This document shows positions 38,023 to 54,417 of a stretch of 64,000 nucleotides of DNA, in pieces (within the stretch, counting starts at the first letter, position 1; each line of letters begins with the position of its first letter). The position numbers and the translations under genes were made by a program. The stretch covers positions 1,736,001-1,800,000 of the forward strand of contig LS483371.1 in assembly GCA_900475325.1 (NCBI GenBank), written 5' to 3'. A model generated the notes under the pieces. It saw only the letters and a list, made by a program, of their open reading frames with translations. It made no database searches and was not told the DNA's origin. The DNA comes from Paucimonas lemoignei. GTDB lineage: Bacteria; Pseudomonadota; Gammaproteobacteria; Pseudomonadales; Pseudomonadaceae.

Positions 38023-41000
38023 ATGAATGCACAAGACGCCTTGAAACTCGCCCGCCGTTTTATCGAGTTGCCGCTGCAAAAGCGTCAGCTGTTTATCAAG
38101 GGCTTGCGGCAGGAAGGGGTCGAGTTTGCGGTATTCCCGATTCCTCAGGGAGTGGCCGCCGAGGATCGCGATGCGCTGTCCTACGCTCAGCAACGCATGT
38201 GGTTTCTCTGGCAGCTCGACCCGCACAGCGCTGCCTATAACTTGCCGGGCGCCGTGCGGCTGCGGGGCGATCTGGATGACACTGCCGTCGAGGGGGCGTT
38301 CGCCAGCCTGATCGAGCGCCACGAAACCCTGCGCACGGTGTTCGAACGGCGCAGCGATGACAGCCTGCACCAGGTGCCCTGCGAGGTGCCACTGGTCATC
38401 GGCCGCGAGGATTTGAGCCCCTTGCCTGAGGACGAGCGCGAAGCCCGGGCCAAAGACGAGGCCAAACGGCAGGCGGCTGAACCTTTCGATCTGGGGCGCG
38501 GGCCGTTGCTGCGGGTCAAGCTGCTCAAGCTGGCGCCGGACGAACATGTGCTGTTGCTGACCCTGCACCACATCGTGTCCGACGGCTGGTCGATGAATGT
38601 GCTGATCGACGAGTTCACGGGTTTCTACGATGCCCATCAGCAGGGCCGTCCGGCGCAGTTGCCACCGCTGGCGATTCAGTACAGCGACTACGCCTTGTGG
38701 CAGCGCCGCTGGCTGGAGGCAGGGGAGCAGGCCCGGCAGCTGGAGTACTGGCAGGCGCAATTGGGTGATGAGCATCCGCCGCTTGAGTTGCCGCTGGATC
38801 ATCCACGGCCCGCGGTCTCCAGCTATCGCGGTGTGCGTCACGAGTTTGCGGTTGACGATCAATTAGTCGAACAACTGCGAGGTTTGGCCCAGCGCCACAA
38901 CATCACCTTGTTCATGCTCTTGCTCGGCGCGTTCAATGTGCTGCTGTATCGCTACACCGGCCAGGGCGACATTCGCGTCGGTGTGCCGATCGCCAACCGC
39001 AATCGCAGCGAGGTCGAAGGGCTGATCGGTTTCTTCGTCAACACTCAAGTGCTGCGCACCCGGCTCGATGGGCAGAGCCGCGTCAGTGATGTGTTGCACG
39101 CGATCAAACAGGCCGCGCTGGGAGCCCAGGCCCATCAGGATCTGCCCTTCGAGCGGCTGGTCGAAGCCCTCAAACTGGAACGCAGCCTGAGCCATACGCC
39201 GCTGTTTCAGGTGATGTACAACCATCAGCCGCACGTGGCCGATATCAGCTCGATCAAGACCGCTTCCGGGCTCAGCCTTGAGTTGGTGGCAAATCAGGGT
39301 CGCAGCACCCAGTTCGATCTGACCCTGGATACCTGGGAGAAAACCGGCAAGCTCCAAGCCGCGCTGACTTACGCCAGCGACCTGTTCGAGCCCACAACCA
39401 TTCAGCGCATGGCCCGCCACTGGACCCACCTGCTGCAAGCGATCGTCCGCGACCCGCAGCAATGCGTCGGCGAGCTGTCGATGCTCGATGCCAGCGAATA
39501 TCAGACCCTGATCCATGACTGGAACGACAACGCTCTCGACTACCCGAGCAGCCAATGCATTCATGAACTGATCGCCGAGCAGGTCGCCACGCGGCCGCAC
39601 GAACTGGCGCTGATTGATGGCGAGCAACAACTGAGCTACCAGCAACTGGATACCCGGGCCAACCAGTTGGCGCACAAGCTGATCGAGCTGGGCGTGGGCC
39701 CGGAAGTGCGGGTTGGCGTGGCCATGGCCCGCAGCAGCGAGCTGATCATCGCGCTGCTGGCGGTGCTCAAGGCCGGGGGCGCTTATGTGCCGCTGGACCC
39801 GCAATACCCCGCCGAGCGTGTGGCCCACATGCTCGAAGACAGCCAGGCTTTGGTGCTGCTGACCGAGACCGAGGTGCTGCCCGCTTTGCCTGCCACCCAG
39901 GCCACCGTGGTGCTGCTCGACCACGCGAGTTGGCTGTCGAGCTATCCCGGCACGGCGCCACAACAACAGGTGTCGGCGCAGAATCTGGCTTATGTGATCT
40001 ACACCTCCGGCTCCACCGGCAAGCCCAAGGGTGTGGCGATTGCCCATCGCAACGTCGCCGCCCTGATTCAGTGGTCACAGCAGGTTTACTGCCGCGAGGA
40101 TCTGCACGGCGTACTCGCCTCGACCTCCGTTTGCTTCGACCTGTCGGTGTGGGAGATTTTCGTCACCCTGGCCAGTGGCGGCTTCATCATCCTGGCGGAT
40201 AACGCGTTGGCGTTGCCCGAGTTACCGGCTCGGGACCGGGTGCGCTTGATCAACAGCGTGCCGTCGGCGATTGCCGGTCTGCAGCGGCTGGGGCAGATAC
40301 CGGCCAGCGTGCGGACCATCAATCTGGCGGGCGAACCCCTTAAGCAGGCGCTGGTGGAAGCGCTGTATCAACTGCCGCATATCGAGCACGTCTACGACCT
40401 GTATGGCCCGTCGGAAGACACCACCTATTCCACCTGGACCCGCCGTGCAGCAGGCGGCACGGCGAACATCGGTCGGCCGCTGAGTAATACTCGCAGCTAC
40501 CTGCTGGACGGCGATTTGCAGCCGGTGCCTGTCGGTGTGCCTGCCGAGTTGTATCTGGCGGGCGAGGGGATCACGCGCGGTTACCTGCTGCGTCCGGGGC
40601 TGACCGCCGAGCGCTTTGTGCCTGATCCGTTTTCTACCCGCGGCGAGCGCCTGTATCGCACGGGGGATCTGGCGCGCTACCGAGCCGATGGGGTGATCGA
40701 GTACATCGGCCGCATTGATCATCAAATCAAGTTGCGCGGCTTTCGGATTGAGCTGGGGGAAATCGAAGCGCGGCTGCTGCAACACCCTCAGGTCAAAGAC
40801 GCCGTGGTGCTGGTTCACGAGGGCAAGACCCTGGTGGCTTACGTCGTTCCGCGAGCCGCGGTGGACAATGTTCAAGCCCTCAATCAACAGCTCAAGAGTC
40901 ATGTGCTGCTGACCCTGCCGGATTACATGACGCCCAGCGTATTCCTGCAACTTGACCAACTGCCGACTACGCCCAACGGCAAGCTGGACCGCAAGGCCTT

Positions 41001-54417: not shown

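Follow-up and report, generated by a model that had tools for sequence, protein, structure and literature searches.

Introduction

Pyoverdine assembly lines are commonly divided between chromosomal loci. About 90% of them occupy two clusters and about 10% one or three, and the printed rule for lines in three clusters is that the chromophore cluster comes first and the cluster with the thioesterase (TE) last (PMC11444679). Pyoverdine genes may occupy up to five loci (PMC12971057, citing Gross and Loper). Genetic work ties such genes to function: in Pseudomonas putida GB-1 disruption of PputGB1_4083 abolishes pyoverdine (PMC4019867), and KT2440 no longer inhibits a rival once PP_4219, PP_4220 or PP_4243 carries an insertion (PMC5062028). 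P. syringae 1448a makes a pyoverdine with the peptide Lys-OHAsp-Thr-Thr-Ser-OHAsp-Ser (OHAsp, beta-hydroxyaspartate; PMC3207962). Here we describe two nonribosomal peptide synthetase (NRPS) genes, W1 and W2, that lie beside a receptor gene in a 64,000-nucleotide stretch of Paucimonas lemoignei (positions 1736001-1800000 of the closed 5,924,472-base chromosome LS483371.1; hereafter the window).

A sequence-only reading of the window had described a three-module NRPS locus with neither a start nor a release module, and had left the choice between a detached segment of a pyoverdine-like or corrugatin-like assembly line and a short new metallophore or building block. We conclude, with a probability of about 93%, that W1 and W2 encode the opening three peptide modules of the pyoverdine line of this strain and stand, together with its likely cognate receptor, 2.6 Mb from the rest.

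The arrangement differs from the closest described systems. The GB-1 peptide NRPSs form one operon, and that strain has a separate SyrP-like hydroxylase gene (PMC4019867), whereas here there are two loci and a fused hydroxylase. The 1448a system resembles ours in having seven modules, OHAsp as an iron ligand and closely matching Asp, Thr and Ser codes (its eight-residue Asp and Thr codes are each one residue off those found here; PMC3207962 Table 2), but it occupies one locus, uses a separate SyrP-like hydroxylase and places two OHAsp residues, where ours has one OHAsp and one module of the N5-hydroxyornithine (OHOrn) type. Pyoverdine lines in several clusters are known. What is added is a split that runs through the peptide part and leaves the receptor with the relocated half, a rule for module order drawn from condensation (C) domains, and a pyoverdine-linked gene that combines SCP2 and JmjC-like domains.

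Results

W1 (3452 aa) and W2 (1060 aa) overlap by four bases, ATGA. Pfam and motif searches found in W1 four Condensation matches (one of them an epimerization, E, domain), two AMP-binding, two PP-binding and one TauD match, and in W2 one each of Condensation, AMP-binding and PP-binding, which gives the domain order that the sequence-only reading had proposed for both genes (Table 1; A, adenylation; T, carrier). HHxxxD is present in all four condensation-type domains of W1 (three C, one E). The A-domain codes obtained by alignment to GrsA are DLWNNALTYK (Ala) and DFWNVGMVHK (Thr) in W1 and DLTKVGHVGK (Asp) in W2, so that the specificities read earlier were borne out and the disagreement with Ala, Thr and Asp that would have counted against that reading was not seen. 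W1 has no opening loading module, as had been noted, and its first C domain (W1_C1) groups with the first C domains of pyoverdine-type operons. About 42 residues follow the T domain of W2, close to the 45 estimated before. No TE was detected with Pfam or NCBIfam in the scanned NRPS and neighbouring genes of the window, and a TE search of the whole genome placed none there, again in line with that reading.

Interface-associated aspartate beta-hydroxylases of NRPSs are recognised by an Fe/2-oxoglutarate (2OG) triad and by an adjoining C-like domain that lacks HHxxxDG and precedes an Asp A-T pair. The end of W1 and the whole of W2 have this composition. The hydroxylase domain carries HNE plus a distal His in LAAHARDP, the interface-type C-like domain of W2 (C*) has ARCVADQHS in place of HHxxxDG, and the T domain of the Asp module retains an intact GGHS motif. 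The pair resembles the NRPS-fused members of the class, with a terminal TauD domain and then C* and the Asp module, and we found no feature that distinguishes it from them.

Elsewhere the chromosome holds one other NRPS region, 2.6 Mb from the window genes: of the 14 condensation-type matches in the genome, five fall in W1 and W2 and nine at 4.381-4.426 Mb. This main locus encodes a PvdL-type NRPS, whose modules we take to be an acyl-ligase followed by Glu, Tyr (with the E domain) and 2,4-diaminobutyrate (Dab), and two peptide NRPSs, M1 and M2, the latter with the order C-A(Gly)-T-C-A(DGECCGGVTK)-T-TE. NCBIfam models applied with their cut-offs identified PvdP (NF051454, 1039.8 bits against a cut-off of 625), PvdO (NF051459, 530.4 against 500), PvdH (NF005393) and the cyclic-peptide ABC exporter PvdE (TIGR01194), the last two also over cut-off. 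A PvdA-type ornithine hydroxylase was recognised through PF13434; no PvdA-specific model matched it, the lone NCBIfam match being to a histamine N-monooxygenase model, far below cut-off. The only MbtH of the genome, a type II thioesterase (TEII) and an extracytoplasmic function (ECF) sigma factor are also at this locus. The sequence-only reading had listed as out of reach a TE, MbtH, an ornithine hydroxylase, an exporter and a sigma factor. That holds for the TE within the window, but TE, TEII, MbtH, an ornithine-hydroxylase-type protein, a PvdE-type exporter and an ECF sigma factor all lie within 4.37-4.43 Mb; and PvdL, a TE-bearing NRPS, PvdA-type and PvdE proteins, which it had advised seeking elsewhere in the genome, were found there, 2.6 Mb away. 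The genome thus has PvdL, PvdP with PvdO, PvdH, PvdA-type and PvdE proteins, and an FpvA-like receptor gene adjoining peptide NRPS genes. TE-ended peptide NRPSs with a hexadentate ligand set, taking OHOrn from the code, are complete only when the window genes are counted.

We then compared relatives, in a sample of 149 genomes of the genus (numbered here with G; this genome is G000). A stand-alone W2-like open reading frame (ORF) occurs in 23 other genomes, namely the rows other than our own that scored above a group of 39% identity, and the surroundings of all 23 were examined. To the question raised earlier of whether relatives hold the same genes within a pyoverdine NRPS locus, 14 of the 23 answer yes, with the W1-W2 set and a TE-bearing NRPS in one locus. 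In six of these a W1-W2-FpvA operon converges on an operon of M-type, OHOrn and TE modules (G003, G015, G032, G052, G073, G144); the other eight have other release NRPSs (G080, G081, G084, G100, G112, G054, G062, G097). Two are detached (G022, G026), and seven were excluded from this division, as short contigs or different types of line (G083, G107, G076, G010, G145, G086, G132), a T-TE fragment being visible on the G107 contig. A separate search for related loci returned five, three of them from Pseudomonas; in the third of these, P. syringae GAW0119 (L045), W2 lies on a 6 kb contig.

The detached arrangement beside PanS is found in five genomes: this one, G022, G026, P. viridiflava p4.B4 and Pseudomonas sp. 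CFII64. In CFII64 the opposite side of the island additionally carries GntR and the SCP2-JmjC gene. In a search of 20 chosen genomes, an M2 orthologue (73-90%) is present in all five and in no others, which match M2 at 50-59% over the first half and at up to 74% over the block from the last module to the TE. G115 presents the empty site, where GntR (98.8% identical) directly adjoins PanS (97.5%) without an intervening island. No W2-like ORF of G115 was among the rows listed (best match of the listed type, E-value 3.4e-115), and its best M2 match in the 20-genome search was 50%. The detached pyoverdine-like segment that the sequence-only reading had offered as one option is therefore supported by the rest in the same chromosome, the single loci of relatives, both halves in five genomes and neither in G115.

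At the M2-Abh3 end the neighbour is the same in CFII64, P. viridiflava and G026 as in this genome, and the break therefore falls between FpvA and Abh3. In G050, which is close by identity of the flanks, a complete pyoverdine peptide locus, different from ours and including PvdE and PvdO, occupies the opposite side of PanS (C17:51143-96359), and the site has therefore been used more than once. Pyoverdine peptide genes have entered the neighbourhood of PanS, tRNA-Val and tRNA-Asp (window 54489-56861) on at least two occasions.

The order of the modules was approached through trees of C domains, built like all our trees with FastTree; domains shorter than 350 residues or below 150 bits and the C domains of G062 and G097 were excluded, and domain types were assigned from tree position. 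In a tree of 133 C domains, W1_C1 fell with domains that open first NRPSs, and the first C domain of M1 (M1_C1) with those that follow OHAsp modules. We predicted in advance that the first NRPS beside PvdE in G003, G015, G032, G052 and G144 would open with a domain of the M1_C1 type. This held in all five, and the M1_C1 clade (n = 15, support 1.0) comprises NRPSs that follow an OHAsp module. When the tree was extended by 29 C domains from 23 further operons, the W1_C1 clade (n = 31, support 0.997) gained all 23 added openers of first NRPSs and none of the six openers of second NRPSs; it consists solely of C domains that open a first peptide NRPS. No NRPS was found in the 10-12 kb further upstream of the clade members of G003, G015, G032, G052 and G144, and upstream of the CFII64 member lies the SCP2-JmjC gene. 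In four genomes the M1_C1 clade is represented by single-module C-A-T-TE proteins, able only to come last, and in G112 and G081 a hydroxylated Asp is followed by a one-module Thr-TE protein. The C-domain classes point to the line order PvdL, W1, W2, M1, M2.

Read in this order, the modules predict a pyoverdine of the structure chromophore-D-Ala-Thr-OHAsp-D-Ser-Thr-Gly-cOHOrn (cOHOrn, cyclic OHOrn), in which product, order and stereochemistry are all deduced from the genes. The succinyl form would be C42H57N11O20, with a calculated [M+H]+ of 1036.385, which is S3c13 minus CH2. S3c13 itself is Ser-Val-OHAsp-Gly-Thr-Ser-cOHOrn and has the same layout (PMC8888394). The code DGECCGGVTK marks the last module before the TE in M2 and in 11 relatives (G003, G015, G022, G026, G032, G052, G073, G144, P. 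viridiflava, CFII64 and G050), and we infer that it specifies OHOrn. A related code, DGEACGGVTK, stands in G083 at the position that acetylated OHOrn (AcOHOrn) holds in S3g01, Ala-AcOHOrn-Ala-Gly-Ser-Ala-OHAsp-Thr (PMC8888394). The G083 modules are Ala-DGEACGGVTK-Ala-Gly-Ser-Ala-OHAsp, where the contig ends before the last NRPS, and seven of the eight residues match if DGEACGGVTK means OHOrn.

The main locus has one OHOrn-type module and no Asp module, and without the window genes its product would be a peptide of four residues that lacks one bidentate group. The iron shell appears to be completed by catechol and cOHOrn from the main locus and OHAsp from the window. A lone OHAsp that could not saturate Fe(III) beside a siderophore receptor had been the puzzle of the sequence-only reading; it is resolved if the chromophore catechol and OHOrn come from the main locus.

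The FpvA-like receptor read earlier beside the NRPS genes was corroborated by Pfam. Its ORF of 840 aa begins with GTG (an in-frame ATG is at 51908) and lies directly downstream of W2. It is 95% identical to the counterpart in P. viridiflava p4.B4, to which the genome is close, and 51-60% identical to the receptors that adjoin W2 in the six one-locus relatives with convergent operons. The main pyoverdine locus holds none of the 23 receptor-like matches in the genome; apart from the window receptor, none was found next to pyoverdine NRPS genes. It is likely the cognate ferripyoverdine receptor.

Table 1. Features of the detached island and of the main pyoverdine locus (window positions, except for PvdL and M1, given in chromosome positions)
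Feature	Position	Strand	Basis or remark
Whole detached pyoverdine island	36204..54488	.	between GntR (35457-36203) and PanS (54489-55553)
SCP2 + Cupin_8/JmjC-like protein, 377 aa	36648..37781	-	Pfam; divergent from W1
Putative PvdS-type box TAAAT-N16-CGT, ahead of SCP2-JmjC gene	37819..37842	-	exact match
Putative PvdS-type box TAATT-N16-CGT, ahead of W1	37942..37965	+	one mismatch
NRPS W1, C-A(Ala)-T-E / C-A(Thr)-T / C-betaH	38023..48381	+	Pfam, motifs, codes
W1 second A domain (Thr)	44014..45600	+	code; nested in clade of M1 second A domains
TauD-type aspartate beta-hydroxylase (betaH) domain of W1	47428..48303	+	Pfam; HNE at aa 3219-3221
NRPS W2, C*-A(Asp)-T, predicted to make OHAsp residue	48378..51560	+	Pfam, code, motifs
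Loose PvdS/FpvI-type box TAATT-N15-CGT, ahead of receptor	51731..51753	+	
FpvA-like TonB-dependent receptor with signalling (STN) domain	51895..54417	+	Pfam STN, plug, barrel
M1, C-A(Ser)-T-E-C-A(Thr)-T	4381208-4389562		main locus
PvdL-type NRPS, A-T-C-A-T-C-A-T-E-C-A-T	4414192-4427862	-	domain search

The second A domain of W1 has a history of its own. It reads Thr here and Gly in W1 of G022, G026 and CFII64, and it nests within the second A domains of M1 of this lineage (support 0.995). Its identity to that of the strain's own M1 is 87.7% over 1345 bp, against 65-70% for the other W1-M1 matches longer than 1 kb; therefore an A domain has probably passed from one half of the line to the other. 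A comparable exchange of A domains inside one pyoverdine set is on record (PMC11366639). Here it looks like a natural replacement of Gly by Thr at residue 2 across 2.6 Mb.

Four box-like promoter matches occur in the window, three in the promoter regions of the island (Table 1) and a fourth outside it. Taking TAAAT-N16-CGT as the PvdS-box consensus, one exact match was found in the window against 1.00 expected, and only its position is suggestive. The box ahead of W1 shares CCCCATCCGT with a match at 4428925-4428948, ahead of MbtH/TEII/PvdL. Further box-like matches at the main locus lie ahead of PvdE, PvdA, PvdH, PvdP and perhaps M1.

The SCP2-JmjC gene divergent from W1 has the character of a pyoverdine-locus gene in relatives, a point the sequence-only reading had missed. 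Orthologues (E-value 1e-60) are present in 33 of the 149 genomes. The surroundings of all 32 genomes other than ours were read, and an NRPS or a named pyoverdine gene is nearby in 31; in G092 it is an NRPS fragment only, and the 5.8 kb contig of G035 shows TEII only. At this threshold the gene was not matched in the remaining 116 genomes and is therefore not part of every pyoverdine system. G022 gave no match, and its contig holds only 635 bases upstream of W1. In the aligned proteins HxD (H275/D277) is invariant and the distal H356 is kept in 31 of 33 rows, the other two having gaps; the protein is predicted to be an Fe(II)/2OG oxygenase. Among the papers listed by literature searches none gave an account of a pyoverdine-linked SCP2-JmjC gene, which is not proof of absence.

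Discussion

The genes suggest the following path. PvdL at the main locus would build acyl-Glu-Tyr-Dab, the first C domain of W1 would accept this tripeptide, and W1 would add D-Ala and Thr. The C-betaH end of W1 and W2 would then add Asp, hydroxylated at the beta position on its carrier. The first C domain of M1 would accept the OHAsp-ended chain and M1 would add D-Ser and Thr, after which M2 would add Gly and N5-hydroxyornithine and its TE would release the chain. PvdE, PvdO and PvdP would export and mature the product, and the window receptor would take the ferric form back in. A chain made in this way would start at one locus, continue at the other and return to the first to be finished.

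Several observations weigh against this account. Its evidence, namely domains, codes, neighbours, the empty site, co-occurrence and the class of the inter-protein C domains, is all drawn from sequence comparison, and the receptor specificity is deduced. Site and identity show the five detached genomes to be closely related, so their co-occurrence of both halves does not amount to five independent events. Eight one-locus lines end in codes other than DGECCGGVTK (G054, G080, G081, G084, G100, G112, G062, G097). Two nodes within the W1_C1 clade are weak (0.13 and 0.03), in a tree made with FastTree only. In the 100 kb around the main locus, five to six of 14 box-like matches lie ahead of pyoverdine genes and eight or nine do not. 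A receptor search of 76 relatives (E-value threshold 1e-250) matched eight genomes, this one included, and receptors 52-53% identical to that of the window occur away from any W2-like gene in G009, G013 and a second copy in G015; the receptor type is therefore not tied to the island, and the cognate assignment draws mainly on neighbourhood.

Of the alternatives, all of which we reject, the nearest keeps the line and changes its order, so that M1 (Ser-Thr) would follow PvdL and W1-W2 (Ala-Thr-OHAsp) would come between M1 and M2 (Gly-cOHOrn). M1 and M2 are separate proteins and the printed three-cluster rule would allow this order (PMC11444679); our case departs from that rule in that the TE cluster also holds the preceding NRPS, and we read the order from C-domain classes. 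These classes make M1 ahead of W1 improbable: the M1_C1 clade follows OHAsp modules, in four genomes within proteins that can only come last, W1_C1 belongs to the first-C clade, and OHAsp recurs as third residue in printed structures. Its detachment and its absence from the close relative G115 might suggest that the island is a relic, left from an earlier pyoverdine line and now out of use, but this is very improbable. The island's three large ORFs are open with the checked motifs intact, both halves are kept in five genomes, and the main locus by itself would leave the peptide four residues long and one bidentate group short.

As its other option the sequence-only reading had a short metallophore or tailored building block; the two genes would then make D-Ala-Thr-OHAsp on their own, for uptake by the adjacent receptor. 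W1 and W2 do stand alone in the window with the receptor, and no other named siderophore gene was found among the scanned neighbours. Yet the two proteins have no start or release domain, the parts they lack are elsewhere in the genome in a pyoverdine system without a receptor, W1_C1 sits in the first-C clade of pyoverdine-type operons, and relatives keep the set inside one pyoverdine locus; we consider this reading highly improbable, slightly more so than a relic. The corrugatin link can be set aside as close to negligible. W2-like proteins of G010 and G145 lie beside PvdH-like genes in lines of different module make-up, but W1 has no opening loading module, and W1_C1 groups with the pyoverdine-type first C domains and not with the C domains of those two genomes. 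Nor is W1_C1 the lipo-initiation (C-starter) domain that would start a line of the corrugatin type, as judged by its tree position, no C-starter profile having been run. A detached part of the strain's own pyoverdine line accounts for the observations best.

More tentatively, and with rather less than even odds, the SCP2-JmjC gene may encode an unrecognised oxygenase of the pyoverdine pathway that hydroxylates the nascent or mature pyoverdine, and the C domains at the hand-over points would act as class-specific addresses, one accepting the chromophore and one OHAsp, that order the scattered line. A search for a new tailoring step could readily start from this gene, and with the C-domain classes scattered pyoverdine genes can easily be put in order and their product predicted. 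The locus is also a warning against reading NRPS loci region by region, in which case this pyoverdine could be filed as two incomplete clusters. A 2026 survey of 225 P. viridiflava genomes counted NRPS and NRP-metallophore clusters as separate classes (PMC13387001).

Some further observations concern the surroundings. Two ORFs of the main locus (460 and 296 aa) have no Pfam match, the longer of which may be antisense to the true gene; no result depends on either. In G010 (C1:2670001-2710000) and G145 (C1:2080001-2120000) the W2-like proteins belong to lines that start with Asp-Dab, adjoin a PvdH-like gene and carry the codes DGDASGIVVK and DSALIAEVWK, perhaps a different, corrugatin-like type of OHAsp siderophore. 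Ahead of the island, window 28372-36203 (minus strand) encodes a gamma-glutamyltransferase, a dipeptide/oligopeptide ABC transporter and GntR; it is kept in G050, G115 and G026 and looks like an uptake operon for glutathione or gamma-glutamyl peptides.

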